From Paraburkholderia largidicola (GTDB lineage: Bacteria; Pseudomonadota; Gammaproteobacteria; Burkholderiales; Burkholderiaceae): a DNA stretch of 64,000 nt. Position numbers and translations under genes: made by a program. Within the stretch, counting starts at the first letter, position 1; the number at the start of each line of letters is the position of its first letter. Below the pieces are notes generated by a model that worked only from the letters and a program-made list of their open reading frames with translations, searched no databases and was not told the DNA's origin. Below are positions 42,197-60,153 of this stretch, one piece after another. The stretch spans positions 1,178,001 through 1,242,000 of the forward strand of contig NZ_AP023175.1 of NCBI RefSeq assembly GCF_013426895.1, written 5' to 3'.

Positions 42197-42820
42197 TCAA
42201 CCAAGCGCTGCCATCAGCGCTTCCAGAAACCGCACATACGCCGTTGCCCCCGGATCGGCGTGACCGATGCTGCGCTCTTGCACCCACGCCGCACGCCCCT
42301 TCTGCGATTGCAGCGCGGCCGTCGTTTCCACCTGCCGCCGCGCGGTCGCAATCATCTCAGCGAGAATCTCACGCGCGCTCCCGGTCGACGCCTCGAGCAC
42401 ATCGAGGCTCGGCACCAGCGCATCGAGCACGGTCTTGTCGCCGACCTTGCTCTTGCCGCGTTCGACGATGCGCGCCGCTATCGCGCGCCCAATCGTGAGC
42501 ACGTCGTCCTTGCCGACTTCATGTTTATCCACCATCGTCTTCGCCGCCGCCAACAGGCCGCCGCCCGTCAACGCCGCGAACGTCGACGGATTGGCCGCCG
42601 AAAAGGCCTGACCGGCGGCACGCAACATGTCGCTCATCGCTGGGTCATCGGGTAAAGCGGCGAGCGCTTTCACGACAGCTGCCGATCCCGCCTTCACCGT
42701 GATGCCGAGATCGCCGTCGCCGAGCGCCGCATCGAGGTCGCGCAATTCGTCGGTGTGCGCGGGCAGCGCATCCAGCGTGCGTATCAGCAGCGCACGGACT
42801 TCATTGGATGACAGGCTCAT
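42197..42820 (-). CDS. dhaL: DhaL-like kinase ADP/ATP-binding subunit
   Basis: 207-residue nucleotide-binding subunit of a dihydroxyacetone-kinase-type enzyme. Magnesium-binding aspartates D30, D35 and D37 (LDAALGDGDLG) coincide with those of E. coli DhaL. The glycine loop differs: canonical GGASGPLYG is replaced by TGGGLLAAA. There is no DhaM phosphotransferase gene, so the phosphate donor is unclear (ATP or a distant PTS protein). It ends a long minus-strand gene series and follows dhaK by 13 bases. Confidence 0.87.
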   Translation of the reverse strand: MSLSSNEVRALLIRTLDALPAHTDELRDLDAALGDGDLGITVKAGSAAVVKALAALPDDPAMSDMLRAAGQAFSAANPSTFAALTGGGLLAAAKTMVDKHEVGKDDVLTIGRAIAARIVERGKSKVGDKTVLDALVPSLDVLEASTGSAREILAEMIATARRQVETTAALQSQKGRAAWVQERSIGHADPGATAYVRFLEALMAALG

Positions 42821-42833
42821 GATGTGCGCTCCA

Positions 42834-43844
42834 TCAGACCAGCAGCCAGTCGCGGTATAGCGGCGAACGCGCGGGCGCGGCGAGCAGCGTTTCGAGTTCG
42901 TCGTCGAGCAGCATCACGGTGATCGACGCCCCCGCCATTTCGAGGCTCGTCACGTATTCGCCGACATACGAGCGTGCAATCGACAAGCCGTGATCCCCAA
43001 TCACTTTCGCCGCGCGCCTGAACAGCAGATACAGTTCTTCGAGCGGCGTCGCGCCGAGTCCGTTGATCAGCACGGCGAGCCGCGCCCCCTTCGGTGCCTG
43101 CAGATCGCCAAGAATCTGACCCATCAGACGATCCGCAATCGCATCGGCGGATTCCAGCTTGCCACGATGCGTGCCGGGTTCGCCATGAATTCCGATGCCG
43201 ATCTCCATCTCGCCATCGGGCAGCGTGAACGTGGGTTTGCCCGCAGCGGGCAGAATGGTCGGCGACAGCCCGACACCCATGGTGCGGCAATGATCGTTCG
43301 CCTTCGCGCAGATGCGCGCGACTTCGTCGAGCGAATCGCCGCGCTCCGCCGCGGCGCCCGTGCACTTGAAAACGAACGCCATGCCGGCCACGCCGCGCCG
43401 CTCGCTCGCGCGCTCCGCTGGCGCCGACGCGACATCGTCGGTCAGCAGTACCGTTTTGATGTCGATGCCTTCGGGTTCCGCGAGATCGGCGGCGAGATCG
43501 AAGTTGAAGACGTCGCCGCCGTAGTTGCCGTACACGTACAGCACGCCCGCTCCGCCGTTCACGGCTTTCGTGGCCTCGAAAATCTGTTCTGCCGACGGCG
43601 ACGAGAACACGTTGCCTACCGCGACGCCGCTGCACAGCCCTTCGCCGACATAGCCGAGAAATCCCGGCATGTGCCCCGAGCCGCCACCCGTGACGATGCC
43701 GACATGCCCTGCTTTCGGCGCATCGGCACGCACGAGCGCGCGACGGTCGGCTGTCGCGGCCTTGATCCAGCCTGGGTGCGCGATCAACAGCGCATCAATC
43801 ACTTCGTCGACGAAATCATCTGGCTGGTTGATGATCTTTTTCAC
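42834..43844 (-). CDS. dhaK: DhaK-like ketose kinase subunit
   Basis: 336-residue substrate-binding subunit of a dihydroxyacetone-type kinase. H220 in GIGIHGEPGTH is the residue that forms the covalent hemiaminal with the keto substrate. The GGGSGH motif (53-58) is present, but the following residues are MPGFLGYVG instead of the usual EPxHxGYIG, a change next to the substrate pocket. The substrate may be a related ketose such as erythrulose rather than dihydroxyacetone. GTG start with AAGGAG. It lies 19 bases from the ribose-type permease gene. Confidence 0.87.
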   Translation of the reverse strand: MKKIINQPDDFVDEVIDALLIAHPGWIKAATADRRALVRADAPKAGHVGIVTGGGSGHMPGFLGYVGEGLCSGVAVGNVFSSPSAEQIFEATKAVNGGAGVLYVYGNYGGDVFNFDLAADLAEPEGIDIKTVLLTDDVASAPAERASERRGVAGMAFVFKCTGAAAERGDSLDEVARICAKANDHCRTMGVGLSPTILPAAGKPTFTLPDGEMEIGIGIHGEPGTHRGKLESADAIADRLMGQILGDLQAPKGARLAVLINGLGATPLEELYLLFRRAAKVIGDHGLSIARSYVGEYVTSLEMAGASITVMLLDDELETLLAAPARSPLYRDWLLV

Positions 43845-43863: not shown

Positions 43864-44865
43864 TCAGTTCTTGCGCCGTTGGCTGAGCGCGTCGAGCATG
43901 ACGGCGGCGAAGATGACGCCGCCCTGAATGAACTGGGTCCAGAATGGATTGACGCCGAGCAGCGACAGACCGACGTTGATGACGCCGATCAGCACCACGC
44001 CGATAAACGTGCCGATGATCGAGCCGCGCCCGCCCGCCAGCGATGTCCCGCCGATCACGACGCCCGCGATCACCTGCAATTCGAGCCCGTTGGCGGCCGA
44101 AGGCAACGCCGAATTGAGCCGTCCCGCGAGCACGATCCCCGCAATCGCCGCCGTCACGCCCGCGAGCGTATAGGTCAGAAAGATCACGCGACGCACAGGA
44201 ATACCCGCCAGCCGCGCCGCTTCCTGATTGCCGCCGACCGCGAACACCTGATGTCCGAACGTCGTCTTGCGCAGCAGCACGTGGCCGATCACGAACACGA
44301 TCAGCATCACGATCATTGGCGCGGGCAAGCCGGCGAACGTCTTCGCGCCGAACAGCGTGAACGCGTTCGGAAAATCGAACTTGGTGCGGCCATCGGAAAT
44401 GGCGAGCGTGAGGCCACGGCCCATCGCCATCATCGCGAGTGTCACGATGAACGGCACAAGTCGCAGCCATGTCACCGACAAGCCGTTCAGCGCACCGACG
44501 AGCGCGCCGACCGCGAGCGCTATCGCGAGACCGGCAATGCCGACTCCGACGGCGTCGGGTGTCGAGCCCGCCATGAAGGTCGCGGCAACCATCCCGCTCA
44601 ACGCGACCAGCGAGCCGACCGACAGATCGATGCCCGACGTGATGATCACGAATGTGCCGCCCACCGCCGCGATCCCGACCACCGACGTCTGCACGAGGAT
44701 GTTGGTCAGCGTGCTCGTGGTGAGAAACTCCGGCGACGCGATCGACAGCACGACGCAGATGACGATCAGCGCGGCCAGCAAGGGACCGACACCGCTGCGC
44801 AATTGCCGGATCACGCGACTCGAAAGCGCTTCCGGGTCAGTCTGTTTCGCTGCCGTCGAAGTCAT
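43864..44865 (-). CDS. Ribose-type ABC transporter permease (RbsC family)
   Basis: 333-residue inner-membrane permease with about 8-10 helices, of the RbsC/AraH type that works as a homodimer. VIITSGIDLSVGSLVALSGM is the family signature, and the EAA-like loop GGNQEAARLAGIPV contacts the ATPase. The ATG at 44865 overlaps the ATPase stop (ATGA) and has AGGAG, so I preferred it over an in-frame ATG at 44889. Part of a complete importer with the ATPase and binding-protein genes upstream. Confidence 0.92.
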   Translation of the reverse strand: MTSTAAKQTDPEALSSRVIRQLRSGVGPLLAALIVICVVLSIASPEFLTTSTLTNILVQTSVVGIAAVGGTFVIITSGIDLSVGSLVALSGMVAATFMAGSTPDAVGVGIAGLAIALAVGALVGALNGLSVTWLRLVPFIVTLAMMAMGRGLTLAISDGRTKFDFPNAFTLFGAKTFAGLPAPMIVMLIVFVIGHVLLRKTTFGHQVFAVGGNQEAARLAGIPVRRVIFLTYTLAGVTAAIAGIVLAGRLNSALPSAANGLELQVIAGVVIGGTSLAGGRGSIIGTFIGVVLIGVINVGLSLLGVNPFWTQFIQGGVIFAAVMLDALSQRRKN

Positions 44866-46424
44866 GCTCGTGCTCCTGTTGTCGCCCATTGAATCACCGT
44901 CTCCGAATCGGCTTCGTCGCGGGGCAGTTCCGCAACGATCCTGCCGCGATACATCACCAGCACCCGGTCGGACATGCCGAGCAGTTCCGGCAACTCCGAA
45001 CTGACCATCACCACGGCTGCGCCCGCGCGTGCCATCGCCACCATATGCGCGTAGATTTCCGTCTTCGCGCCGACATCGATGCCGCGCGTCGGTTCGTCGA
45101 GCATGATCACGGCGGGCTGCGTGGCCGTCGCGCGCCCGAGAATGACCTTCTGCTGATTGCCGCCCGACAGATTGCCCGTGATCTGCACGACGCTCGACGC
45201 CCGCACGCCGAAGCGCGCACTCGCCTTCTGCGCGAGCGCACGCTTTCGCGCACTACGCACGAAGCCGCCCGTCGCGATTGCCTTGAGGCTCGACAGCACG
45301 ATGTTTTCTTCGATACTCGCTTCGAGCACGAGTCCTTCGAGCTTGCGATCTTCGGCGGTGTAGACGAGACCCTGGCGCACGCCATCGGCGGGCGAGCGGA
45401 CCACGGTCTTGTTGCCGCGAATGAAGATGTCGCCTTCGGTCACCTTCTGTGCACCGAAGATCGCCTTCAGCAACTCCGTGCGGCCCGCGCCCGCAATACC
45501 CGCAATCCCTACGATCTCGCCCGCGCGCACCTTGAAGCTCGCGTGCCGCACGATGGGCGGACTCGCAAGATCGCGCACTTCGAGCACGACCGGTCCGTAA
45601 TCGCGCGGCTCCCACGGGTAGAAGGAATCGAGATTTCGCGCGACCATCGCCTGCACCAGATCCTGTTCGGTCCACGCCGACATCGGGCGCTCGCTGACCG
45701 TCGCGCCATCGCGCATCACGACGGCCGAATCGGCCAGCTCGAACACTTCTTCCAGATGGTGCGAAATGAAAATGATGCCCATGCCCGCTGCGCGCAACCG
45801 TTTCACGACCGCATACAGATGCGAGATGTCGTCGCGCTGCAAAGCGGCCGTCGGTTCGTCCATCACCAGAATGCGTGCGTCGCGTGCAACGGCTTTTGCG
45901 ACTTCGATCAGTTGCCGCTTGTTGAGCGGCAGATCGCCGAGCCGCATGGAGGGCGACACGCCGTCGAGGCCCACTTGCGCGAGCGCCTGTCGCGCATTCT
46001 GATCGGCCTCGCGCCGCTGGACGAAGCCGTTTCGTGCCGGCATGCGACCAAGAAACAGGTTTTCCGCCACCGTCATGTCGTTGACGAGCGACAGCTCCTG
46101 ATAAATCACCGCGACGCCCGCATCGATTGCCGCGTGCGTACCGCGGCCAAGCGGCACGCCGTTGATCTCGATCGTGCCTTCGTCCGGTTCGTAAGCGCCC
46201 GACAATGTCTTGATCAGCGACGACTTCCCCGCGCCGTTTTCGCCGACGATGGCCAGCACCCGGCCCGCCTCCAGCGTCAGACTGACGCCGCGCAGCGCCT
46301 TCACACCCGGAAAGCTCTTGACGATGCCCGCCATGCGCAGCAACGGCGGCACATGGCTGTCGGCACCCGCTTGCGGGTGTGATTGCACGTTGTCTTGCGA
46401 CTGCGAACTCGTCCCGGCGCTCAT
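44862..46424 (-). CDS. Ribose-type ABC transporter double ATPase (RbsA family)
   Basis: 520-residue fused ATPase with two nucleotide-binding domains. The first has Walker A GENGAGKSSLIKTLSG and Walker B ARILVMDEPTAAL. The second has the degenerate Walker A GIAGAGRTELLKAIFG and signature LSGGNQQKV. This asymmetry is normal for RbsA/MglA. The ATG at 46424 follows GCGGAA; two earlier in-frame ATGs look less likely. It pairs with the adjoining permease. Confidence 0.92.
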   Translation of the reverse strand: MSAGTSSQSQDNVQSHPQAGADSHVPPLLRMAGIVKSFPGVKALRGVSLTLEAGRVLAIVGENGAGKSSLIKTLSGAYEPDEGTIEINGVPLGRGTHAAIDAGVAVIYQELSLVNDMTVAENLFLGRMPARNGFVQRREADQNARQALAQVGLDGVSPSMRLGDLPLNKRQLIEVAKAVARDARILVMDEPTAALQRDDISHLYAVVKRLRAAGMGIIFISHHLEEVFELADSAVVMRDGATVSERPMSAWTEQDLVQAMVARNLDSFYPWEPRDYGPVVLEVRDLASPPIVRHASFKVRAGEIVGIAGIAGAGRTELLKAIFGAQKVTEGDIFIRGNKTVVRSPADGVRQGLVYTAEDRKLEGLVLEASIEENIVLSSLKAIATGGFVRSARKRALAQKASARFGVRASSVVQITGNLSGGNQQKVILGRATATQPAVIMLDEPTRGIDVGAKTEIYAHMVAMARAGAAVVMVSSELPELLGMSDRVLVMYRGRIVAELPRDEADSETVIQWATTGARA

Positions 46425-46493
46425 GTGCTGATTCCGCATTCGATGACGGGTCCGCGCCTCGCACACGGTGCCCGTCGAAGTGACATCGATACG

Positions 46494-47600
46494 TTACTGG
46501 CTCACCTGCAGCGACCACAGACCGTATTTTTTCGTTTCGTCCGAATCGATATTCGACTTGTCGATCAGGAACGTCGGCCATGCGTAGGTGGCGGGCACGG
46601 ACTTGCCCGCCGCGTTGTCGGCGATGAAGTTGAGCGACTTCGCCGCCATTTCGATCGGGTTCTGCGAGATCGTCGCGTCCTGCTTGCCTGCGCGGATCGC
46701 CGACAAGGCCTGCGCCGTGCCATCCGCGCCGATCACGAGAATGTGTGCCTTGTCGTCGAGCGGCTTGTAGCGGCCCGCGTTGTCGATGGCTTTTTCCGCG
46801 CCCACCGTGTTGTCGTCGTTGGCTCCGAACACCGCGTCGATCTGCGGGAATTTCTGCAGGATGTTGGTCATCGCGTTCAGCGACTTCTCCTGATCGAAAG
46901 CTCCTTCCTGACGCGCTACGACCTTGATGTCCGGGTACTTGGCGATCTCGTCGCTAAAGCCCTTTTCACGATCGGTGGCGGCTGTCGTGCCGACCAGGCC
47001 GATCAGGTCGACGACATTGCCTTTCGCCGAGCCGTAGCGTTTGGTCAACTGATCGGCAATCCATTTCGCGCCTGTTGCGCCGAGCGCAACGTTATCCGAC
47101 GCGACGAACGACGTGACCTTGCCGCCGTCCGATCCGCGATCGAGCGTAAAGACGGGGATGTTCATCTGATTCGCTTTCTGCACCACGGGGATGATCGCCT
47201 TCGAATCGATCGGGTTCAGAACGAGCGCGGTGATGCCTTGGCTCAGCAGATTGTTGGCGTCGTTGACCTGTTGCTGCGCATCGCCGTTCGCATTGGTCTG
47301 TACCAGTTCGAACGACTCGGCTTTCGAGCCCTTCTCGACGCCGAGCTTCAAGCCAACGAAGAACGCATTGTTCAACGTCGCAATGGAGAAGCCGATCTTG
47401 GTCTTGCCTGCGGGAGCCGACGCCGGCGCAGCGCTCGCGACTGCGGCGCCGCTTGCGCTGGCATCGCTCGCCGCGGTTCCCGTCGACGGCGACTCGCTCT
47501 TCGAGCAGCCGCTCAACGCAGCGGCGACGCACAACAGTCCAGCACCCGCCGGCGCGGCGAGTGAACTCCATCCGTTAAACCGTGCTGAATTCCAGGCCAT
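46494..47600 (-). CDS. Ribose-type periplasmic sugar-binding protein
   Basis: 368-residue RbsB-like sugar-binding protein. The N-terminus has a lipobox-like LSGC (C32), then an alanine/serine-rich linker of about 35 residues before the mature domain (KTKIGFSIATLNNAFFVGLKLG). The two-lobed fold ends VSQ. The long linker and possible lipidation are unusual for RbsB, which is normally a free periplasmic protein. It is followed by its ATPase and permease. The ligand could be a pentose, deoxy-pentose or tetritol. Confidence 0.88.
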   Translation of the reverse strand: MAWNSARFNGWSSLAAPAGAGLLCVAAALSGCSKSESPSTGTAASDASASGAAVASAAPASAPAGKTKIGFSIATLNNAFFVGLKLGVEKGSKAESFELVQTNANGDAQQQVNDANNLLSQGITALVLNPIDSKAIIPVVQKANQMNIPVFTLDRGSDGGKVTSFVASDNVALGATGAKWIADQLTKRYGSAKGNVVDLIGLVGTTAATDREKGFSDEIAKYPDIKVVARQEGAFDQEKSLNAMTNILQKFPQIDAVFGANDDNTVGAEKAIDNAGRYKPLDDKAHILVIGADGTAQALSAIRAGKQDATISQNPIEMAAKSLNFIADNAAGKSVPATYAWPTFLIDKSNIDSDETKKYGLWSLQVSQ

Positions 47601-47693: not shown

Positions 47694-48374
47694 CTACGGG
47701 CGTTTGCGTCGCACGCCATATTGACTAAACCTGTCCACCACCTCGGCCATCTGCTCGTCCGACAGCACGGGCGGCGCGCCGAGCGTCGCCGCGAGCAGAT
47801 ACTGCTGTGCCAGTACTTCGACTTCATTCGCGAGCCACAAGGCCCGCGCGAGATCGGGTCCAAGCGCGATCACGCCATGATGCGCAAGCAAACATGCTGT
47901 GCGGTCTTGCAGCGCAGCCAGCGCGTGATCCGATAGCGCCTGACTGCCGAAGGTCGCATAAGGCGCGCAACGAATCGAATTGCCGCCCGCAGCGGCGACC
48001 ATGTAGTGATGCGCGGGAATATCGCGGCCGTGAATCGACATCGCCGTGGCCGCGTTCGAATGGGTGTGGACCACCGCGCCGATTTCGGGCCGTGCGTGGA
48101 GAATGTCGCGATGAAAGCGCCATTCCGTCGACGGCCGCTTTTCGTCGAACACGGGCGCAGTCGCTTCGATATCGAGCGGCAACCAGACGATCGTGTCCGT
48201 ATCCAGTTGCGCCGCCGGCACGCCGCTCGGCGTAATCAGAAAGCCGTCGCGCCAGCGCGTGCTCACGTTGCCCGACGTGCCCTGATTGATGCCCAACCGC
48301 ACCATCTCCTGCATCGTGTTCACGATGTCGGCACGCAATGCGTCTTCCGTCGCTGGCTGGTTGCTCACGCTCAC
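47694..48374 (-). CDS. Class II (zinc) aldolase, fuculose-1-phosphate aldolase family
   Basis: 226-residue FucA/AraD-family aldolase. Zinc ligands H103 and H105 (VHTHS) and H165 or H166 (LAHHGV) are present, with the catalytic glutamate candidate E84. Such enzymes split sugar 1-phosphates into DHAP and an aldehyde. The GTG start overlaps the isomerase stop, and together with the kinase and isomerase upstream it completes a DHAP-shunt module. A GTG two codons downstream is an alternative start. Confidence 0.88.
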   Translation of the reverse strand: MSVSNQPATEDALRADIVNTMQEMVRLGINQGTSGNVSTRWRDGFLITPSGVPAAQLDTDTIVWLPLDIEATAPVFDEKRPSTEWRFHRDILHARPEIGAVVHTHSNAATAMSIHGRDIPAHHYMVAAAGGNSIRCAPYATFGSQALSDHALAALQDRTACLLAHHGVIALGPDLARALWLANEVEVLAQQYLLAATLGAPPVLSDEQMAEVVDRFSQYGVRRKRP

Positions 48375-49459
48375 GATGCCGTACTCGCAGCGGGCGCTTC
48401 GGCCTGAAACAAGGCGGCGAGGTTGGCTTCGAACGGTTTGGCGATGATGCCTCGTTCCGTGATGTAACCCGTCACGAGATCGTGCGGCGTGACGTCGAAT
48501 GCGGGATTCAACACCTTGATACCAGCAGGCGCGATCTGCTGGCCACCGAGATGGGTCACTTCGTCGCCGTGCCGCTCTTCGATGACGATCGTGCTGCCAT
48601 CGGGTGTCTGCAGATCGAGTGTGGACGACGGGCACGCAACATAAAACGGTACGCCGAAATGACGCGATGCAATGGCGAGACTCAGCGTGCCGATCTTGTT
48701 CGCAAAGTCGCCATTCGCCGCCACGCGGTCCGCGCCGACGATCACGACATCCACCTTGCGCCGCGCCATCAGCGACGCCGCTGTGCCATCGGTGATCAAC
48801 GTGACGTCGACATTGGCCTGACGCAATTCATACGCCGTCAACCGCGCGCCTTGCAGCAGTGGTCGCGTTTCATCCGCATACACGCGAAACGCGATGCCTT
48901 CCTGATGCGCCATATAGATCGGTGCGGTCGCGGTGCCGAGTCCGGTCGTCGCCAGTGCGCCGGCGTTGCAATGCGTCAGGACACCACAGCCCGCGGTAAT
49001 GAGCGGCATGCCGTGCAAGCCGATCTGTTCGCACAACAACTGGTCTTCGCGATGAATCTGCATCGCCTCTTCGACCAGCGCGCGATACAGCGATGCGGAA
49101 TCGCTCGCGCCCGAACGATCGGCGGCGCGCAACATGCGCTTGAGGCTCCAGTTGAGATTCACCGCCGTTGGCCGCGCGCTGTCGAGATACGCGGCCTGCT
49201 CGATCAAGGCGGCGCGGAAGCCATCGAGCGGCAGGTCACGCGAAGCCTGCATCGACACACACAACCCATAGGCGGCCGCGACGCCGATTGCGGGTGCGCC
49301 GCGTATCCGAAGTTCGTGAATGGCCCGCCACACTTCGAAAGCCGTCGTTAGCGCTTCGATCACGGTTTCGCGCGGCAAGCGTGTCTGATCGATGATTCGC
49401 AGACTGTCGTCTTCCCACGTGAGCGTCGCCGGCAGACTTTCGAAGATTGGCAAAACCAT
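48371..49459 (-). CDS. mtnA: S-methyl-5-thioribose-1-phosphate isomerase homologue
   Basis: 362-residue aldose-ketose isomerase of the MtnA/eIF2B-like family, converting 5-substituted ribose 1-phosphates to the ribulose 1-phosphates. Catalytic C164 (LTHCNAG) and D244 (GADRV) match C160 and D240 of B. subtilis MtnA with a constant offset of 4, and RGAPAIG at 53-59 binds phosphate. The ATG at 49459 has GGAG; the upstream extension lacks conservation. It lies between MtnK-like and aldolase genes. None of the remaining methionine-salvage genes (mtnB, C, D) is present here. Confidence 0.92.
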   Translation of the reverse strand: MVLPIFESLPATLTWEDDSLRIIDQTRLPRETVIEALTTAFEVWRAIHELRIRGAPAIGVAAAYGLCVSMQASRDLPLDGFRAALIEQAAYLDSARPTAVNLNWSLKRMLRAADRSGASDSASLYRALVEEAMQIHREDQLLCEQIGLHGMPLITAGCGVLTHCNAGALATTGLGTATAPIYMAHQEGIAFRVYADETRPLLQGARLTAYELRQANVDVTLITDGTAASLMARRKVDVVIVGADRVAANGDFANKIGTLSLAIASRHFGVPFYVACPSSTLDLQTPDGSTIVIEERHGDEVTHLGGQQIAPAGIKVLNPAFDVTPHDLVTGYITERGIIAKPFEANLAALFQAEAPAASTAS

Positions 49460-49502
49460 AGTCACTCCACGGCAATTTGATGTGTGCCCGACTGCGTCCC
49501 GT

Positions 49503-50771
49503 TCAGTGCAACCGATGCTCGCGGTCCTGCACATCGCGCGCCAGTTCCACGACCTCCTCGATCGATCCAAACGCATGACGCTCGATCAGCAGACGCTCGG
49601 CACACTGCACGCATTTCACTTCGACGGACGCGCGAATCGCATCGTCTGAAATGCTGGTGATGTCCGCGACCTTCGCCATGCCGACTATCCGGCGAATCAT
49701 CTTGCATCCCGCAAAGCCCAGCGAATTCGCCAGCAAGCGCTGCATGAAACGCGCGCGATAGGCTTCCGCGCAGTGTCCGCCCGGATCGCCGCCGATAAAG
49801 TGACTTTTCCGGCGGCTCTCATGCTCGCGCCACAGCAGCGTGAATTTATTCGCGAACTCCGTCCAGATGCCCGTGATCTGACCGAGCAGCCACTCGCGAT
49901 AGTCGTCGGACCGTTGTCCTGTGCGACGGTCATGCCAGTCGCGCGAGAAATAGGCGAGCAACAGATTCGCCAGCACCGCGCCGACATCGAATCCCATGGG
50001 TCCGTAGAACGCGAACTCGGGATCGATGACGTAGGTTTCGTCCTCGTTCACCATGATCGACCCCGTATGCAGGTCACCATGCACCAGGGTCTCCGTATCG
50101 TTCATGAACGACCATTTCATCTCGGCCACAGCCACGCGCAGCGCGGGCGTTCGCCGGATGCGCTCGATCATCTGTTTCGGGAACGCGTTGCTGTAGACGT
50201 TGGATGGGTGATCTTCGAACGGGAAGGTGAACACGAGGTCTTCGGTGATCTTGCAGAGCTCGGTGTTGATTGCCGCGCCCACCGCCTGCTTTTTGACTTC
50301 GGGTGCAAGAAAGAGATCGGAGCCGTAGAACAGCGTATGCGCAAGATAGGTCGACAGATGGTCGATGAGCTTCGGATAGACATGACCCTCCATCAGCTTC
50401 TGCCGCAGGATCGCGTGCGACGACAGCCGCTGCATCACCATCAGATACAACTCGGTATCGGCGTGATACACGCGCGGCACGTGTTGCGGACACAGTTCGC
50501 CGAAGCGGCGCAGCGCCGCCACTTCCCGGATCATCCGGTGCCGCGTCAACGGCCACGTCTTGCCCACGAGCCGCAGAAACGGCGGGGCCTGTTTGACGAC
50601 GACACTTTTTTCCGGCGTCCGCGCGTTGCTGACGAAGTAGACGTAGTTGAGATTGCCGTCACCCACTTCCGCGATGTCGAGTTCGCCCGGTTGATTGAGC
50701 AACGCATACACGGATGGCACGCCTCGCAGATAAGCGGCCAGCTCCGAAGAACTCAATGCTTCGAATTCCAT
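49503..50771 (-). CDS. mtnK: 5-methylthioribose kinase homologue
   Basis: 422-residue protein-kinase-like small-molecule kinase. HGDLHTGS (231-238) holds the catalytic aspartate D233, and DPEFAFYGPMGFD (250-262) the metal site, both the MtnK signature. It should phosphorylate the 1-position of 5-methylthioribose or a related 5-deoxy-pentose. The ATG at 50771 follows GGAGGAG. It is the first enzyme of the kinase-isomerase-aldolase module. Context with a dedicated sugar importer suggests the substrate is taken from outside. Confidence 0.92.
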   Translation of the reverse strand: MEFEALSSSELAAYLRGVPSVYALLNQPGELDIAEVGDGNLNYVYFVSNARTPEKSVVVKQAPPFLRLVGKTWPLTRHRMIREVAALRRFGELCPQHVPRVYHADTELYLMVMQRLSSHAILRQKLMEGHVYPKLIDHLSTYLAHTLFYGSDLFLAPEVKKQAVGAAINTELCKITEDLVFTFPFEDHPSNVYSNAFPKQMIERIRRTPALRVAVAEMKWSFMNDTETLVHGDLHTGSIMVNEDETYVIDPEFAFYGPMGFDVGAVLANLLLAYFSRDWHDRRTGQRSDDYREWLLGQITGIWTEFANKFTLLWREHESRRKSHFIGGDPGGHCAEAYRARFMQRLLANSLGFAGCKMIRRIVGMAKVADITSISDDAIRASVEVKCVQCAERLLIERHAFGSIEEVVELARDVQDREHRLH

Positions 50772-50799: not shown

Positions 50800-51519
50800 T
50801 CAGCGTTTCTTGCGAACCAGATCGAACTTGAAGATGCTCGTGTTGTAGTAGTCGTTGCTGTAACAGATCGGCTCGCCGCTTTGATCGAAATCGACTTCGT
50901 CGAGCAACAGAAACAGACCGAATCCGTCGCCGAGTTCCGGCAGATCGCGCGGCGTCAGAATGGTCGGCTGGATCGATGTGTGTGTATGTGACAGCCGGCG
51001 ACCCGTGCGCGCGAACATCGCGAATAGCGACTCGCCGAGTTCGCCATTTGCCGCATCGAATACATGCTTCGGCACCGTGTCGATGCAATACGCGGCGATT
51101 GCATCGTCAGCGCATCGCACCCGTTCGATGCGTACACAATCGGCGCCGACGCCTAACCGCAGTTTCGCGGCGAGGTTCTCCGACGCCTTGATCTGATCGA
51201 TCCGCAGCCGGCACGTGGTTGGAACCGCACCGACACTCCGGATCATGTCCGTCACAGACATCAGATCATCGAGCCCGCCTTCGAGCTTCAGTGAAATTTG
51301 TCTGATGAAGGTACCGCGTCCCTGCACGCGAGACAGCAAGCCATGTGAAATCATCTGCGCAACCGCCTCGCGCAGACTGGAACGTCCTACGCCCAGCAGC
51401 TCACATAGCTCTATTTCCGTGGGGATCTGATCACCTGGCTTGAGCGCGCGCTCCCGGATCATCGACGTCAACGACTCCTGGATCTTGTCACTCATCGAAC
51501 GTTCGACACTCAGGCGCAT
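50800..51519 (-). CDS. GntR/HutC-type regulator
   Basis: 239-residue GntR regulator: N-terminal winged helix (about 12-72, GDQIPTEIELCELLGVGRSSLREAVAQM) and a UTRA effector domain (about 85-230) that binds a small sugar-like ligand. It lies inside the sugar operon, 28 bases before the MtnK-like gene. A perfect 14-bp palindrome 36 bases upstream is the likely binding site. ATG at 51519; an ATG at 51495 is an alternative start. Confidence 0.9.
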   Translation of the reverse strand: MRLSVERSMSDKIQESLTSMIRERALKPGDQIPTEIELCELLGVGRSSLREAVAQMISHGLLSRVQGRGTFIRQISLKLEGGLDDLMSVTDMIRSVGAVPTTCRLRIDQIKASENLAAKLRLGVGADCVRIERVRCADDAIAAYCIDTVPKHVFDAANGELGESLFAMFARTGRRLSHTHTSIQPTILTPRDLPELGDGFGLFLLLDEVDFDQSGEPICYSNDYYNTSIFKFDLVRKKR

Positions 51520-51554: not shown

Positions 51555-51568
51555 ATCAGACGTCTGAT
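51555..51568. promoter_or_regulatory. GntR operator candidate
   Basis: Perfect palindrome ATCAGACGTCTGAT, just upstream of a TATATT -10-like box on the minus strand, placing the operator between -35 and -10 of the gntR-mtnK promoter. Confidence 0.65.
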
Positions 51569-51629: not shown

Positions 51630-52505
51630 TTACCTGTGCTGCTTCGCTTTTGCAGCAGCATTGAGTCCGCCAGCGATGAACCCGCGAGCGTGTGTCGCAA
51701 GGTCCATGCTGTCGTCCCACAAATTTCGCCAGATGGCCAGCGCATTGGACAACTGTTCGTTGACGACGGCAGATGAAAAGCTCTCGAAGGTGATCACGCC
51801 TTTGTAGTCGATCATCGCCAGTGCATGGAAGAACTGTGCGAAATCGATCGTGCCGGAGCCAAGGTATCCACGGTTGCTCTCGCCGATATGGACATAGCCG
51901 AGACGCGCGCCGCACTGCAGCACCGGCTGCATGAAGTCGCACTCTTCGATGTTCATGTGGTAGGTATCCAGATGCACCACCACGTTTGGCGCCCCGATCT
52001 CGTCCAGCATGCCAAGCGCTTGCGACGCCGTATTGAGCAGATTGCTTTCGTAGCGATTGACCACTTCCAGACCGAGCGTCACCTTCTTCTTCAACGCAAG
52101 CTCTGCAATCCGCTTTAGCGATTCCACTGCGTTTCGACGCCCCTTTGCGGTAATGGGCGCCTGGTATTTGCCCATCGCACTGTACAAAATACCGCCAAAG
52201 TAAGCCCCGCCGAGTTCCGCGGTAATCCTGACGCCCTCCTCCAGCAATACCATGCCGCGCGCAACCACTGCGGGGTCTTCGCTGGAAATGTCGGCGTCGA
52301 AAGTCAGGCCGCGCGAGCAGCCAATATCAAGGTTGTGCTCCTGCAGCAAGTCACGCGTCAGCGAAAGGTCCATGACCTTAGGACCGTGCAAGGAGAGTTC
52401 GATCAGGTCGAAACCCGCCGCTTTCGTCTGGGTGATGACCTTACGCGTCGACTCCCGCGACAGATCTCCCGCCCATACCAACGCGTGGACGCCTAGTTTG
52501 TTCAT
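51630..52505 (-). CDS. Ketose 3-epimerase (D-tagatose/D-psicose 3-epimerase family)
   Basis: 291-residue TIM-barrel isomerase. Metal-binding E147 (LEVVNRYESNLLNT), D180 (HLDTYHMNIEE), H206 (HIGESNRG) and E241 (TFESF) match the E152/D185/H211/E246 site of D-tagatose 3-epimerase with a constant offset of 5. It should epimerise a free ketose at C3. It lies between the MalK-type ATPase and GntR genes on the same strand. Pentulose, hexulose and tetrulose epimerases share this fold, so the substrate is open. Confidence 0.88.
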   Translation of the reverse strand: MNKLGVHALVWAGDLSRESTRKVITQTKAAGFDLIELSLHGPKVMDLSLTRDLLQEHNLDIGCSRGLTFDADISSEDPAVVARGMVLLEEGVRITAELGGAYFGGILYSAMGKYQAPITAKGRRNAVESLKRIAELALKKKVTLGLEVVNRYESNLLNTASQALGMLDEIGAPNVVVHLDTYHMNIEECDFMQPVLQCGARLGYVHIGESNRGYLGSGTIDFAQFFHALAMIDYKGVITFESFSSAVVNEQLSNALAIWRNLWDDSMDLATHARGFIAGGLNAAAKAKQHR

Positions 52506-52559
52506 TGCGCTGCGCCTCCCGTCGAGAAGACCAGATCAGTCAACTACCCGAGTTCGCGT

Positions 52560-53684
<1,125 letters not shown>

Positions 53685-53845
53685 GCGTGTCTCCTGTCCC
53701 ATGCAAGGTCGTACGGCGTCTTGCGCTGGTCTCATGCAAAGCAGTGGCTGCGTCGTGACGGGTGCACAACGTCGCGCGGCGAATCTGCGGCGAACTCGAA
53801 TCGCACATGCCGCGGCGCACCATGCAGCACTTGACGATTTTCTTC

Positions 53846-53898
53846 TTGACAACAGGTGCGCGTCAAAATATACATTTGTAAAACGCAAATTACAAGTG
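53846..53898 (+). promoter_or_regulatory. Sigma-70 promoter with overlapping operator, polyol operon
   Basis: TTGACA (53846-53851), 17-base spacer, TATACA (53869-53874): a near-consensus promoter reading toward the binding protein at 54010. An imperfect palindrome, CATTTGTA (53873-53880) with TACAAGTG (53891-53898), overlaps the -10 and predicted start. It is suited to the SorC regulator encoded downstream. The remainder of the 325-base gap (53685-54009) shows no other clear element. Confidence 0.65.
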
Positions 53899-54009
53899 AA
53901 ACGACGAGGGCACGCCGTACGTTTTGCGACGCGTTGATACGCGTCGCCGCAATGACGATGAACGCCGCGGCATTTGCCGATGGTTCAAGAACAATCAAGG
54001 AGACGAACG

Positions 54010-55362
54010 ATGAAGAAGCGCTTTCTGCAGCCTGCTGCCATAGCCTTGTCGCTTGCCACGGTATCGCTGCTCAGCGCTGCCAACGCGGGTGCATGGACAC
54101 TGAAAGAGGCCGCGCAGCCGTACTCGGGCACCACCATCAAGGCGATCTTTCTCGATCGCCCCGGCTACAAGGCCGCGCAGAAACTCATTCCGCAGTTCGA
54201 AAAGGAAACGGGCATCAACGTGAAGTGGGAAGTGATCCCGTACGAGAACACGCGCGAGAAGGAAGTGCTCAACTTCGTCGGCGGCGGCGATCAGGACGTG
54301 GTGCTCGTCGACGTCGTGTGGATCGGTGAATTTGCAAGCAACAAGTGGCTCGTGCCCATCAAGACCTTCACCGACAACCCGAAGCTCGCCGATCCGAAGC
54401 TGAACCTGCCCGGCTTCTTCCCGATTCTGCTCGACTCGTTCGGCTCATGGGACAAGGTGACGTACGGCTTGCCGTTCGATAACTACTCGGGCCTGATGTT
54501 CTACAACAAATGCATGTTGAAGGACGCCGGCTTCAACGAGCCGCCGAAGACCTGGGATGAACTGCTCAACACCTATGCGCCAAAGCTGACGCAGGCCAGC
54601 AAGAACCAGTTCGCGTTCGCGCTGCAATCGCGGCGCGGCGAAACGCAGTCCGCGGACAGTTTCATGCGCGTGCTGTGGCCGAACGGCGGCTCGCTGCTCG
54701 ACGCCAAATTCAAGTCGAACCTGATGTCGCCGCAATCGCAGGCGGGCCTCGAATACCGGCAGAAGCTGATGAAGTACATGCCGCCCGGCATCGTGGATTT
54801 CGATCACGCCGAAGCCGTCAACGCGCTCGCGCAAGGCCAGGTCGCGATGATCACCGAATGGTCCGCGTTCTATCCGACACTCACCGATCCCGCCAAATCG
54901 AAGATCGGCAACTGCCTTGCGATCACCACGGAACCGAAGGGTCCCGCCGGTCTGAAGCCCGCGCTCGGCGGTTTCTCGCTGGCCGTCAACGCGAAGTCGA
55001 ATGCGAAGAAGCAGGCGGCCGCTTGGCTCTTCATCCAGTGGATCACGTCCGAAGAAATGGCCAAGCCCTATCTGGAAGCGGGCGGCGTCCCCGCGCGCAC
55101 AGCCGTGTACCAGGACAAGGCGGTGCAGGACAAGTATCCGTTCGTGAAGCCGATGGTCGAGTCGTGGCAAGGCGGCGTGCCTGACTATCGTCCGCGCTTC
55201 CCGGAATGGCCGGCTGTGTCGGAAGTGATCGGCGAATGGGGCACCAAGATCATGCTGGGCCAGGTGTCGGTGAAAGACGGTGCGCAAACCATCGGCTCGA
55301 AGACAGAAGAGATATTGAACAAGGCGGGCTATTACAGCGGCAAGAAGCCTTTGCTGAAGTAA
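54010..55362 (+). CDS. Polyol/sugar ABC transporter binding protein (SmoE-like)
   Basis: 450-residue family-1 solute-binding protein with a signal peptide ending near NAG-A (residue about 27). The mature part has the typical two-lobed MalE-like sequence, with [16 protein letters not shown] and [20 protein letters not shown] precedes the ATG at 54010; an upstream in-frame ATG adds unneeded residues. It starts the plus-strand arm of the divergent island. Polyol specificity is inferred from the dehydrogenases downstream. Confidence 0.9.
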
Positions 55363-55387
55363 CGGCAACGCACCGAAGGGAGCATCG

Positions 55388-56323
55388 ATGTTGAACAGCA
55401 CTGCTCGACCCGGTAACGGCATGACACCGGCAAGACCCCGCTCGCGGGTCCGCTTGCCGGGTTCGGCCGCGTTCTGGTTTCTGATTCCTGCGATCTTCAC
55501 GCTGGCGGCAATCGGCATCTATCCGCTGCTGCTCGCGTTGTACAACTCGTTTCACCAGTACAAGCTCGCGGATCTGGCCTCGGGCACGCCGTTCATCTGG
55601 TTCGACAACTACATCGCGACGCTGAGCGACCCGTCGTTCTGGGGCGCGCTCGGCCGCACGGCGCTGTTCCTGTGCGTGACATTGCCGATTGAAGTTGCGC
55701 TCGGCCTGTTCGCCGCGCTGATGCTCCATCGCACGACGCTGCCGTGGATGCGCGCCATCGCGCGTGTCAGCCTGGTCATTCCGATGGCGACGACGTATGC
55801 CGTCGTCGGTCTGATCGGGCGGCTCATCTTCAACCGGCAGTTCGGCGTCGCGAACTATATCGGCGGTCTGGTCGGCATGCCACCGCAGGACTGGCTCGCC
55901 GATCCGACGCTTGCGTTCGTCTCGGTGATGATCATGGACATCTGGCAATGGACGCCGTTCTGCGCGCTGATTCTGCTGGCCGGCCTGACGATGGTGCCCA
56001 AAGAAGCCGAAGAAGCCGCGCGCCTCGAAACGCCCAGGTGGAGCAAGATCCTGTGGCATCTGCAACGGCCCTATCTGCTGCCCGGTCTCACGGCAATCCT
56101 GATCCTGCGTTCCGCCGACATGCTGAAGATGTTCGATGCCGTCTTCACCATGACGCGCGGCGGCCCAGGCACCGCGACGGAGTTCATCAGCGTGTATATC
56201 CAGCGCGTCGGTTTCCGCCTGTTCGATCAAGGCATGGCGTCCGCGCAGGCGATCCTGCTGCTGATCCTGACCATCGTGCTGTCGCGGCTCTATATCCGTT
56301 TCGTTTATCGGGAGGCCGCGTGA
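55388..56323 (+). CDS. Sugar ABC transporter permease (MalF/SmoF-like)
   Basis: 311-residue inner-membrane permease with six helices. The EAA loop EAEEAARLETPRWSKILWHL contacts the ATPase. A GGGAG ribosome site precedes the ATG. The stop overlaps the next permease start (GTGA). It forms a heterodimer with it and uses the divergently encoded MalK-type ATPase. Confidence 0.92.
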   Translation: MLNSTARPGNGMTPARPRSRVRLPGSAAFWFLIPAIFTLAAIGIYPLLLALYNSFHQYKLADLASGTPFIWFDNYIATLSDPSFWGALGRTALFLCVTLPIEVALGLFAALMLHRTTLPWMRAIARVSLVIPMATTYAVVGLIGRLIFNRQFGVANYIGGLVGMPPQDWLADPTLAFVSVMIMDIWQWTPFCALILLAGLTMVPKEAEEAARLETPRWSKILWHLQRPYLLPGLTAILILRSADMLKMFDAVFTMTRGGPGTATEFISVYIQRVGFRLFDQGMASAQAILLLILTIVLSRLYIRFVYREAA

Positions 56324-57225
56324 ACGCACCTTCGACGCAACGCGCGAGCGGCGACGCCGCGCTGCCCGGCAACTCCGGCTTGACGGCGCGCGCACGCCGC
56401 GCTCGCGCGGCGCGGCGCACGGCGACCGGCTGGCATTTTCTGGGGCTGCTGGTCGTATTCCTGTCGTCCGTGTTTCCGTTCTACTGGATGGTGACGACGA
56501 GCCTGAAGAGCCAGGCGGAGGCGCTCGCCTATCCGCCCGTGTGGCTCTTCAAGCCGACCTTCGCGCATTACGTGGAAGCGCTGTTCACGCATGAAGTGGG
56601 CGGCAGCCTGATCAACTCGCTGATCATCGCCAGCAGCACGACGGTGCTGTCGATCCTGCTCGGCACGCCCGCCGCGTATGCGCTCGCGCGCTATGAATTC
56701 CGCGGCAAGGAAGACCTGTGGTTCTGGTTCATCTCGAACCGTATGGTCAGTCCTGTCGTCCTCGCCGTGCCCTTCTTCCTGATCGCGACCAAGCTCGATA
56801 TCGTCGATACGCACATCGTGCTGATCCTGCTGTACATCACGTTTTCGCTGCCTATCGTGATCTGGATCTGCACGGACCAGTTTCGCAATATCCCCGTCGA
56901 ACTCGACGAAGCTGCGCGGCTCGACGGCGCTTCGCCGTGGCGGATTTTCTGGCGCATCAATCTGCCGCTGGCGATGCCGGGTATCGTCGTGTCGGCGATC
57001 TTCGCTTTCATCTTTTCCTGGAACGACCTGCTCTACGCACTGGTGCTGACGCGCACCGACGCGATCACGTCGCCCGTCGCAGCCACCAGCTACATGAGCG
57101 GCTATGAGTTGCCGTGGGGCGAAATCATGGCGACGGGTACGCTGATCGTCCTGCCGATGGTCGTGTTCGCGTTGCTGGTTTCGGGCCGACTCGTGCAAGG
57201 GCTGACGATGGGCGCAGTGAAGTGA
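56320..57225 (+). CDS. Sugar ABC transporter permease (MalG/SmoG-like)
   Basis: 301-residue permease with six helices and the EAA loop ELDEAARLDGASPWRIFWRINLPLAMPG. The GTG start overlaps the previous stop. The N-terminal 35 residues are a basic, arginine/alanine-rich cytoplasmic tail. The frame extends far upstream through the first permease, but coding clearly begins at 56320. Confidence 0.92.
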   Translation: MNAPSTQRASGDAALPGNSGLTARARRARAARRTATGWHFLGLLVVFLSSVFPFYWMVTTSLKSQAEALAYPPVWLFKPTFAHYVEALFTHEVGGSLINSLIIASSTTVLSILLGTPAAYALARYEFRGKEDLWFWFISNRMVSPVVLAVPFFLIATKLDIVDTHIVLILLYITFSLPIVIWICTDQFRNIPVELDEAARLDGASPWRIFWRINLPLAMPGIVVSAIFAFIFSWNDLLYALVLTRTDAITSPVAATSYMSGYELPWGEIMATGTLIVLPMVVFALLVSGRLVQGLTMGAVK

Positions 57226-57274
57226 CGCTCTGGTATAACCGCGTGTTGCTTTTCACTCGAACACAAAACGATAC

Positions 57275-58255
57275 ATGACCAAGACCGCCCCACCCGTCAC
57301 GATGCCGGACGCCGATGTTGCCGTCGACGCCGAAGAAGAATTGCAGGCGCGCGTCGCCTGGCATTACTACATCGGCAACATGACGCAGCAGGAAATCGCG
57401 CATCGCATCGGCAGTAACCGCGTGCGCGTGAACCGGCTGCTCGCCGCGGGGCGCGAATCGGGCCTCGTGCAGATTACGATCAATAGCCGGATCGCGCCGT
57501 GCGTTGCGCTGGAGCAAGAGCTGGTCGAACGCTTCGAACTCGAATCCGCCGTGGTCGTGCCGACGGGCATCAACCCCGAGGCGAACATGGCCGCGCTCGG
57601 GATCGGCGCGGCGGGTTGCCTCGTCAAACGCATCACGGAAGCCGCGACGGTCGGCATCGGCTGGGGCCGCACGATACGCGCGGTGCTGCGCGCCATGCCG
57701 CAGCGCGCGTACGGCGCCCTCAACGCCGTGTCGCTGCAAGGCGGTCTGTCGCATTGCCCGAGCATCAACACGTTCGACATCGTCTCGGACTTCGCGAATC
57801 TCTGCCACGCCGACGGCTATCTCTTCGCGGCGCCCATTTACGTCGGCAGTCAGAAGGCGCGCGATCTGATCCTCCAGGAAGAAACCGTGCGCAGCACCTA
57901 TGAGCTCGCGCGCAATGCCGATCTCGCGCTGCTGACCTGCGGCGACCTGACGGAATCGCTCGTCGTCACGTACGGCATCTCGAAGCCCGACGATCTGCGA
58001 ACCTTGCGCAAGGCAGGCGCGATCGGCGACATGCTTGGCCATTTCATGGATGCGAACGGCGATCCCATCGATCATCCACTCAACCGCCGCACGGTCGCGA
58101 TCTCGCTAGACGACCTGCGCAAGATCGAAGACGTGGTGCTGGTATCGGGTGGCACGAAGAAGTTTCATGTGACGCGCGCCGCCTTGCGAGGCCGCTATGC
58201 GTCGGTGCTCGTGACGGACGAAGACACGGCGCGCCGTCTGTGCGACGAACCTTAG
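57275..58255 (+). CDS. SorC/DeoR-type sugar-responsive regulator
   Basis: 326 residues: N-terminal helix-turn-helix (about 25-65, NMTQQEIAHRIGSNRVRVNRLL) and a SorC sugar-phosphate-binding domain (about 75-320, VVPTGINPE, GWGRTIRAVL, VSGGTKK). These proteins respond to phosphorylated sugars or polyols. It lies 49 bases after the permease, within the polyol operon, and is the best candidate to bind the operator at 53873-53898. The ATG lacks a good Shine-Dalgarno sequence. Confidence 0.92.
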   Translation: MTKTAPPVTMPDADVAVDAEEELQARVAWHYYIGNMTQQEIAHRIGSNRVRVNRLLAAGRESGLVQITINSRIAPCVALEQELVERFELESAVVVPTGINPEANMAALGIGAAGCLVKRITEAATVGIGWGRTIRAVLRAMPQRAYGALNAVSLQGGLSHCPSINTFDIVSDFANLCHADGYLFAAPIYVGSQKARDLILQEETVRSTYELARNADLALLTCGDLTESLVVTYGISKPDDLRTLRKAGAIGDMLGHFMDANGDPIDHPLNRRTVAISLDDLRKIEDVVLVSGGTKKFHVTRAALRGRYASVLVTDEDTARRLCDEP

Positions 58256-58264
58256 GAAGCCGCC

Positions 58265-59011
58265 ATGTCCACGCACGACGACTCTCGGCAATTCGACGGC
58301 AAGACGGTGCTCATCACCGGCGCGGGCAAAGGCATTGGCCGCGCGACGGCGCAACTGCTGGCACAGCGGGGCGCACGCGTGATTGCGCTGAGCCGCTCGG
58401 CCGACGACCTGCGAACGCTCGAAGACGAGATCGGCTGCACGACGCTATGCGCCGATCTCGCCGATGCAAGTGCGGCACGCAGCGCGGCGGACGCGGCGCA
58501 ACCCGTCGATCTGCTAGTCAACTGCGCGGGCGTCGTCGAACTGCAACCGTTTCTCGACACGACCGTCGATGCCTTCGACACCATCATGGCCGTCAACGTG
58601 CGCGCCGCGATGATCGTCGCGCAGCAATGCGCGCGCAGCATGATCGGGCGCGGCGTGGCCGGCTCGATCGTCAATGTGTCGAGCCTGTCGGCGACTGTCG
58701 GCTTGCCGCTGCACGCGGCCTATTGCGCGTCGAAAGCCGCGCTCGACGGCCTCACGCGCGTGATGGCCGTCGAACTGGGTCCGCGCGGCATTCGCGTGAA
58801 CACGGTCAACCCGGTCGTCACGATGACGCCGATGGCCGAGAAAGCATGGAGCGACCCACAGAAGTCCGCGCCGATGCTCGCGCGCATTCCGCTCGAGCGC
58901 TTCGTGCAGCCGCTCGAAGTGGCGCGCACGATCGCTTATCTGCTCAGTGACGAGTCGGCCATGGTGAACGGCGTGAGCCTCGCCGTGGACGGCGGTTTTC
59001 AGGCGGGCTGA
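58265..59011 (+). CDS. L-xylulose reductase-like short-chain dehydrogenase
   Basis: 248-residue [11 protein letters not shown] (18-25) binds the cofactor; N111, S140, Y153 and K157 form the catalytic tetrad. Stretches such as [17 protein letters not shown] and [15 protein letters not shown] closely resemble animal dicarbonyl/L-xylulose reductase, which interconverts L-xylulose and xylitol. It lies 9 bases after the SorC regulator, in a polyol operon. A different ketose cannot be excluded. Confidence 0.87.
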
Positions 59012-59063
59012 GCACGCCGGGCAGGTTGCGCAGATCAATCTCTCTCTTGCGAAAGGAACGACG

Positions 59064-60098
59064 ATGGAAGCATTGGTACTCGAAGGCGCACAACGCATCA
59101 GCCTGCGCCCGTTCAGCCTGCCGCAGACAGTCGGGCCGCGCGACGTGCGCATCCGCATCCATACGGTCGGCATTTGCGGCAGCGACATCCACTACTATCA
59201 GCACGGCCGCATCGGTCCGTTCGTCGTCAACGAGCCGATGGTGCTCGGGCACGAGGCGGCGGGCACTGTCGTGCAGGTCGGCGACGAAGTGACCCATCTG
59301 AAACCGGGTGATCGGGTCTGCATGGAACCCGGCGTGCCCGACATGGATTCGCGCGCATCGCGTGAAGGGCTCTACAACCTCGACCCGAAAGTGCGCTTCT
59401 GGGCGACGCCGCCCGTGCACGGCTGTCTCGCACCGTTCGTCGTGCATCCCGCTGCGTTCACTTTCAAGTTGCCCGACAACGTGAGCTTTGCCGAAGGCGC
59501 GATTGTCGAGCCGCTGTCGATCGGTCTGCAGGCCGCGAAGAAAGCGGCCATCAAGCCGGGCGACGTCGCTGTCGTGCTGGGCGCCGGCACGATCGGCATG
59601 ATGTGCGTGCTCGCGGCGCTGGCGGGCGGATGCAGCCGCGTGATCGTCTGCGACATGGTGCCGGAGAAGCTCGCGTTGATAGGCGGCACGCCGGGTGTGA
59701 CGGCCGTCAATATCCGCGAAGCGTCCGTGAAGGAAGTCGTACGGCGCGCGACGGACGACTGGGGCGCGAACATCGTGTTCGAAGCGAGCGGCAGCGAGAA
59801 GGCGTTCGATGGCATCGTCGATCTGCTGTGCCCCGGCGGCTGCCTGGTGCTGGTCGGCATGCCGCAGCATCCCGTGCCGATCGATATCGTCGCGTTGCAG
59901 ATCAAGGAAGCGCGCGTCGAGTCCGTGTTCCGGTACGCGAATATCTTTCCGCGCGCGATTCAACTGATCGCGTCGGGACGCATCGACGTCAAGCCGTTCA
60001 TTTCACGCTCGTTTGCTTTCGCAGACGGCATCAAGGCATTCGAAGAAGCGGCAAGCGGCAATCCGAACGACGTGAAGGTGCAGATCGTGATGGAGTGA
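59064..60098 (+). CDS. Zinc-dependent polyol dehydrogenase (xylitol/sorbitol dehydrogenase type)
   Basis: 344-residue MDR-family dehydrogenase. Catalytic-zinc ligands are C38, H63 and E64 with E149. The structural-zinc cysteine cluster is absent, and [14 protein letters not shown] stands in its place, as in sorbitol and xylitol dehydrogenases. [11 protein letters not shown] is the NAD-binding loop. A GAAAGGAA site precedes the ATG. It likely oxidises xylitol (or another polyol) to the 2-ketose. Confidence 0.88.
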
Positions 60099-60153
60099 TG
60101 GTGCAAACGATGCGGCTTGCGCGTTTGCCAACGAAACCAGCGTGAGGTGCAGC

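Follow-up and report, generated by a model that had tools for sequence, protein, structure and literature searches.

The window analysed here, a stretch of 64,000 nucleotides from Paraburkholderia largidicola (contig NZ_AP023175.1, positions 1,178,001 to 1,242,000), belongs to a genome of 9.47 Mb and contains a unit of nine genes, hereafter called the cassette, all encoded on the minus strand. In the order of transcription they code for a GntR/UTRA transcriptional regulator (50800..51519; PF07702 81.1 bits, PF00392 62 bits), an MtnK-like 5-methylthioribose/5-deoxyribose 1-kinase (49503..50771; TIGR01767 506.8 bits, cut-off 275), an MtnA-like aldose-1-phosphate/ketose-1-phosphate isomerase (48371..49459; TIGR00512 430.9 bits, cut-off 279) and a FucA-type class II ketose-1-phosphate aldolase (47694..48374; PF00596 168 bits; NF005984 255.9 bits, cut-off of 264 not reached). 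These are followed by a ribose-type importer consisting of a substrate-binding protein (SBP; 46494..47600; PF13407 198.7 bits), an RbsA-type double ATPase (44862..46466; PF00005 in two stretches, start codon uncertain) and an RbsC-type permease (43864..44889; PF02653 149.6 bits), and by two kinase subunits: a DhaK-family protein, proposed here to belong to a ketose kinase (42834..43844; PF02733 389.5 bits), and a DhaL-family ATP-binding protein (42197..42820; PF02734 122 bits; TIGR02365 128 bits, cut-off of 138.3 not reached). The intergenic gaps reach at most 93 bases, and neighbours overlap at two junctions: the genes of MtnA and the aldolase by 4 bases, and those of RbsA and RbsC by 28 bases with the start as used. 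Motif scans revealed a perfect 14-bp palindrome, ATCAGACGTCTGAT (51555..51568, no strand assigned), 36-49 bases before the GntR start, which is proposed as the GntR operator. A preliminary description of this DNA had reported the contiguous kinase, isomerase and aldolase, the overlap of the latter two and the complete importer behind them. All of this was verified, but the unit had been drawn too small, as GntR, DhaK, DhaL and the palindrome had been overlooked.

The MtnK gene starts with ATG, and its product carries D233 within HGDLHTGS as well as D250 and aligned with B. subtilis MtnK (2olc), including HGDLHTGS and DPEF. MtnA aligned with 2yrf, showed the catalytic residues C164 and D244 and is the single member of its family in the whole genome. 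Residues E84, H103, H105 and H166 are present in the aldolase, each lying 11 positions after its counterpart in FucA. The best profile for this protein was the FucA model, just below its cut-off, while the MtnB model scored 68.2 bits (cut-off 137.05); as a query of 221 amino acids it gave 226.8 bits with FucA (1fua) versus 126.9 bits with DrdA of B. thuringiensis (6btd). The absence of mtnB and mtnD, seen earlier for the stretch itself, could be extended to the genome, in which MtnB gave no match above the cut-off and 12 below it, and MtnD/ARD gave none; MtnC was not searched for. On these grounds, canonical methionine salvage was rejected. Judged by its genes, the trio would thus be a dihydroxyacetone phosphate (DHAP) shunt of the drd type, with an entry kinase, an isomerase and a clustered class II aldolase replacing MtnB. 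The genome also encodes the methylthioadenosine/S-adenosylhomocysteine nucleosidase MtnN (NF004079 303.9 bits, cut-off 169), so that 5-methylthioribose and 5-deoxyribose would arise inside the cell. A DHAP-shunt-like trio of another build was observed on plasmid 2 of Gemmatirosa kalamazoonensis (L172:12001-16422), where MtnK and MtnA (56% and 65% identical to those of the window) precede a bifunctional aldolase/short-chain dehydrogenase of 688 amino acids (NF006192 1043.5 bits, cut-off 639), i.e. an aldolase with its own fused dehydrogenase. In Rhizobium (L192), a protein of about this length and with a similar N-terminal sequence is encoded close to MtnK-MtnA and an importer.

For the analysis of conservation, the best 80 of 108 confirmed loci from an MtnK scan were retained, 57 of them near relatives (MtnK at least 64% identical) and 23 distant ones (at most 45%). 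A cassette gene was counted when a match of at least 55% identity lay on the same strand near MtnK; the counts are therefore matches and not individually verified reading frames. The suggestion in the preliminary description that the same gene set be sought in other genomes was borne out, as all nine genes were matched at 47 of the 57 near-relative loci and the trio or more at all 57, confirming that the grouping of the trio is not due to chance. The remaining loci were either truncated by a contig end (L061, L073, L088, L097 and L104) or held only MtnK, MtnA and the aldolase (L081, L084, L086, L089 and L095). The nearest loci were from Paraburkholderia and Burkholderia sp. Because the genes flanking the cassette vary among locus groups, the conserved unit extends from GntR to DhaL. 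Among 59 relatives, the window's own genome included, MtnK exceeded the cut-off in eight, all within the genus of the window; seven of these (the window and six others) carried all nine genes and one (G017) the trio only. The cassette of Candidatus Paraburkholderia calva (L104:2915-9969) looks damaged: the aldolase matched in two pieces, the kinase and RbsA are each split over two reading frames and no DhaK match was obtained before the contig end.

Outside the near relatives, a metagenome-assembled genome (MAG) of Brevibacillus (L108) carries, all on one strand, genes for a DeoR-type regulator, aldolase, MtnK, MtnA, SBP, RbsA, RbsC, DhaK and DhaL. The regulator belongs to another family than that of the window, and the SBP did not match the window SBP at the threshold applied, indicating that the same functional set exists with partly different components. 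Among 398 evenly sampled Pseudomonadota genomes, MtnK exceeded the cut-off in 37, including the window's own. An importer with an SBP of one of two other types stood beside MtnK-MtnA in 14 of the other 36 regions (11 P_SBP and 3 B_SBP), a distant relative of the window SBP (28-29%) was found within the stretch in three further regions, and DhaKL occurred in two MtnK stretches (L199 and L192). Importers beside MtnK are thus common and DhaKL is uncommon. L192 was rejected as a second MtnK-DhaKL cassette, as the neighbours of its DhaKL are a TpiA gene and the gene of an erythrulose-phosphate isomerase.

GntR was matched upstream of MtnK at 52 of the 57 near-relative loci. At 53 loci, the 1100 bases preceding MtnK contain the palindrome with at most one mismatch (40 exact, 13 with one mismatch), the exceptions being L050, L051, L086 and L104, while a control of equal length from the MtnK start onward gave 0/57. 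Within the window, ATCAGACGTCTGAT had no other match at up to three mismatches. Of the genomes tested, all nine with MtnK, the trio-only G017 among them, have a single ATCAGAYRTCTGAT site, located at the mtnK locus, and the three lacking MtnK have none. The palindrome is thus likely to be the operator of GntR, which we infer to bind it and repress the operon. Scans for promoters and terminators found no more than in shuffled sequence.

The five trio-only loci form two groups in an MtnK tree of 62 rows, which are separated by well-supported branches and were joined in 0% of 200 bootstrap trees. Remnants of GntR were detected upstream of MtnK by tblastn in L081, L084 and L095 and were not found in L086 and L089; the palindrome (at most one mismatch) was retained at all but L086. 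L079, a locus with the full cassette, has flanking clusters in common with L081 and L089. The remnants, the palindrome and the flanks shared with L079 indicate that both groups derive from a full cassette. Four of the five trio-only genomes were searched for the lost genes: none gave an SBP match at 1e-40 or a cassette-type DhaK, and the five DhaK matches obtained, 40-45% identical, all carried HEPxH and KNY(T/S)GD. Both cassette-bearing sister genomes possess the SBP and a DhaK of the YGNY class. GntR, SBP, RbsA, RbsC and DhaKL were therefore lost together in two independent events in which the trio was kept, indicating that the trio has a role independent of the importer.

The DhaK of the cassette differs from dihydroxyacetone kinases in two motifs, GGGSGHMPGFLGYVG and YGNYGGD being found instead of GGGSGHEPxH and KNY(T/S)GD, while the histidine of GIHGEPG is kept. 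In the window the first motif reads GGGSGHMPGF, and GGGSGH(L/M)P.FLGYVG together with YGNYGGD was present in all 49 near-relative loci with a readable DhaK and likewise in L108. The two other DhaK genes of the genome encode GGGSGHEP(A/L)H and KNY(T/S)GD, and E. coli DhaK has GGGSGHEPMH and KNYTGD. In an unrooted tree of 28 hand-picked rows, some of them long-branched, the cassette DhaK fell outside both groups holding the genome's other two and, separate from the canonical proteins, branched (100/96) with DhaK proteins encoded in other sugar operons. The TIGR02363 score (cut-off 406.25) was 381.1 for the cassette DhaK, 438.6 for the canonical stand-alone and 386.5 for the canonical fused DhaK and does not separate the classes, since the canonical fused DhaK, L192 and L211 lie below the cut-off as well. 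Motifs and tree thus disfavour a dihydroxyacetone kinase, and the cut-off score does not decide. In the same branch, DhaK of L192 adjoins a D-erythrulose-4-phosphate isomerase (NF051858 254.1, cut-off 240) and L210 is an operon of a TIM-barrel protein, DhaKL and a two-part transketolase, which presumably resembles the apiose pathway. A YGNY-class DhaK-DhaL was also observed on plasmid p1 of Rhizobium rosettiformans (L211:3251-11296), directly after another sugar ATP-binding cassette (ABC) importer and before an FGGY kinase, with no MtnK in the stretch read, forming one more sugar operon. Further DhaK homologues are 71-73% identical to the cassette DhaK, and the five of them that were read (P0102, P0104, P0108, P0112 and P0115) carry GGGSGH(L/I)P.FLGYVG and YGNYGGD; P0108 and P0115 bear the label of Actinomycetes/Actinomycetota MAGs.

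All three importer components remained below the ribose equivalog cut-offs: the SBP scored 184.1 bits with RbsB (cut-off 337), RbsC 248.9 bits with the ribose permease model (cut-off 398), and the best model for RbsA was that of L-arabinose AraG (554.3 bits, cut-off 689). The SBP aligned with the ribose-binding proteins 2ioy and 1dbp. The positions N13, F15, F16, N64, D89, R90, S103, N105, R141, F164, N190, D215 and Q235, which we take to be the contacts and pocket walls of E. coli ribose-binding protein (RBP), were kept in all 53 aligned SBPs (the window and 52 loci) having a residue there. Compared with E. coli RBP, F214 is replaced by A, M193 by N and E192 by D in 53/53, and I132 by L and R139 by T in 52/53. 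The protein would therefore fit a ribo-configured sugar in an altered pocket, while the ligand is not named by the sequence. A canonical ribose locus lies elsewhere in the genome at C2:393-399 kb, where RbsB, at 341.3 bits against a cut-off of 337, lies about 3 kb from a ribokinase (310.5, cut-off 299.65); the latter is one of three ribokinases over the cut-off, none of which lies in the cassette.

These observations suggest, at somewhat less than even probability, that the nine genes form an operon under a single regulator for the uptake and cleavage of external 5-deoxy- or 5-alkylthio-pentoses, in which DhaKL would be a ketose 1-kinase providing a second entry. The SBP, RbsA and RbsC would bring in the sugar. 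MtnK would phosphorylate the aldose (5-deoxyribose or 5-methylthioribose) at C1, MtnA would isomerise the product to a 5-substituted ribulose 1-phosphate, and the aldolase would split this into DHAP and a two-carbon aldehyde, the operon being repressed by GntR via its single palindrome. DhaK-DhaL is predicted to phosphorylate an imported 5-deoxy-ketose, e.g. 5-deoxyribulose, directly to the substrate of the same aldolase, bypassing MtnK and MtnA. The use of an external sugar as carbon source, proposed in the preliminary description, agrees with the trio having its own importer and local regulator and with the separate D-ribose locus. That description left DhaKL aside, which a plain route from 5-deoxyribose to DHAP and acetaldehyde does not need. 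DrdK, the B. thuringiensis kinase, phosphorylates 5-deoxyribose and 5-methylthioribose and does not act on 5-deoxyribulose, ribose or the hexoses tested (PMC6079011); a second kinase would thus be needed for an imported 5-deoxy-ketose to be used at all. By-products formed inside the cell are aldoses, so that a lineage ending import would no longer need DhaKL, and such an aldose-only supply would fit the loss of DhaKL with the importer. It is conceivable, with less confidence than for the operon as a whole, that DhaKL is a new enzyme, a 5-deoxy-ketose 1-kinase acting on 5-deoxyribulose, on 5-methylthioribulose or even on 7-deoxysedoheptulose, an inhibitor that is excreted, within a two-entry DHAP shunt scavenging deoxy-sugars that other organisms excrete as waste of radical S-adenosylmethionine enzymes.

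Several points weigh against the two-entry operon. The DhaKL set was found in only one of the 23 distant MtnK loci (L108) and the cassette in only one of the 36 other Pseudomonadota regions (L199). With two events only, the joint loss of DhaKL and importer could reflect a single deletion across neighbours and not a shared function; GntR lies on the opposite side of the trio from SBP-DhaL, yet has decayed too. The assignment of DhaKL as a ketose kinase is drawn from motifs and two genomic contexts (L192 and L210), the functional role of the changed DhaK residues is our assumption, and the TIGR02363 test is weak, since one of the two canonical-motif DhaK proteins also misses the cut-off. The SBP retains the presumed ribose pocket nearly whole, so that an ordinary ribo-sugar is a possible ligand. 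Substrates and activities are predicted from genes, and 5-deoxyribulose as an external sugar was not reported in the literature passages covered.

Among the alternatives, the one that survives best, although unlikely, is that DhaKL acts as a triose kinase: a longer sugar, such as a hexofuranose-like or branched aldose, would be cleaved to DHAP and glyceraldehyde or dihydroxyacetone, and either of these trioses phosphorylated into glycolysis. This would explain a kinase of the dihydroxyacetone kinase family at the operon end that was lost with the importer, and the characterised aldolase DrdA takes various aldehydes (PMC6079011). However, the cassette DhaK lacks HEPxH and KNY(T/S)GD and falls outside the groups of the genome's other DhaK proteins, MtnK lies far above its equivalog cut-off, and its characterised homologue did not phosphorylate the hexoses that were tested. 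Rather less probable is an independent substrate of DhaKL, a tetrulose or branched ketose sharing only importer and regulator with the trio, whose product bypasses the aldolase. YGNY-class relatives in an erythrulose-type locus (L192) and in an isomerase-transketolase operon (L210), and the loss of DhaKL with the importer and not with the trio, speak for it; however, the conserved unit holds no isomerase besides MtnA and no transketolase to process such a product, and Brevibacillus has the same combination under another regulator and with another SBP. It is improbable, too, that the trio only recycles 5-methylthioribose and 5-deoxyribose derived from MtnN, with the importer recapturing leaked sugar. 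The shunt of R. rubrum and B. thuringiensis serves sulfur salvage or 5-deoxyribose removal (PMC12632272), MtnN exceeds its cut-off, and the trio was kept after importer loss in two lineages. The earlier claim that the module serves an external sugar rather than the recycling of an internal by-product was accordingly not upheld in this exclusive form. On the other hand, the local regulator, with its one site in each genome, goes beyond the needs of internal disposal, as do the complete importer and the DhaKL present at 47 of 57 loci; the B. thuringiensis pathway requires just three enzymes. An ordinary pentose (D-ribose or D-ribulose), cleaved via ribulose 1-phosphate to DHAP and glycolaldehyde, is very improbable, for although FucA-type aldolases cleave ribulose 1-phosphate and the SBP keeps the presumed ribose contacts of E. 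coli RBP, D-ribose is disfavoured by the separate RbsB/ribokinase locus, the inactivity on ribose of the characterised kinase homologue and the alanine at F214 in every cassette SBP.

Adjoining the cassette, at 51630-61245, the window contains a D-psicose-epimerase-like gene and genes for MalK, a protein of the SBP_bac_1 family, a regulator carrying a sugar-binding domain, a short-chain dehydrogenase/reductase and two zinc dehydrogenases, which together resemble a polyol operon. The epimerase gene (51630-52505) was rejected as a member of the system, as it had no match in the 80 fetched loci or in the clusters of neighbouring genes.

5-Deoxyribose and 5-methylthioribose are waste products of nearly all cells. 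Deoxy-sugars, among them 5-deoxyribose, are excreted by at least one cyanobacterium (PMC8102628). The trio, transporter-linked clusters and the idea of external 5-deoxyribose are already published (PMC6079011, PMC12632272, PMC10986504), while the literature searched, which lay mostly outside subscription papers, yielded no description of the link to DhaKL, of the GntR palindrome or of the joint loss in two lineages. If the two-entry operon holds true, a conserved system for import and cleavage would make deoxy-sugar waste a shared carbon source in soil, and DhaKL would be a testable candidate for the phosphorylation of 5-deoxyribulose, which the characterised shunt kinase does not catalyse. 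The split in DhaK motifs may also help to distinguish ketose kinases from the numerous genes with a dihydroxyacetone kinase annotation.

Ketose kinases of the DhaK family are known from the erythritol/threitol and apiose pathways. The cassette DhaK resembles those of this type (L192 and L210) in YGNYxGD, in F for H after GGGSGHxPx and in its branch of the tree; unlike theirs, its neighbours are MtnK-MtnA-aldolase and a ribose-type importer and not TpiA/RpiB-type isomerases or a transketolase. The importer shares its protein families and the presumed ribose contacts of its SBP with RbsBAC but, as mentioned, not the ribose equivalog scores. With methionine salvage (MtnK-MtnA-MtnB-MtnC-MtnD) the cassette has the first two enzymes in common, both above equivalog cut-offs, whereas the next step would be performed by the aldolase. 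The drdK-drdI-drdA genes of B. thuringiensis form a similar cluster of kinase, isomerase and class II aldolase, and in PMC6079011 four of the clusters drawn include sugar transporter genes and the use of external 5-deoxyribose by transporter-linked clusters is considered; in contrast to the drd cluster, the cassette has an aldolase closer to E. coli FucA than to DrdA, and adds GntR with its conserved palindrome and DhaKL. The mtnK-mtnA-ald2-permease operon of E. coli likewise provides these three reactions as a carbon route under regulation, and one of its genes codes for a putative transporter (PMC10986504 and PMC12632272). The cassette trio was 37, 44 and 43% identical to that of E. coli KE47 (the strain studied being ATCC 25922). 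The E. coli system has a single putative permease and the DeoR-family repressor MtnR, whereas the cassette has an ABC importer, a local GntR regulator and DhaKL.

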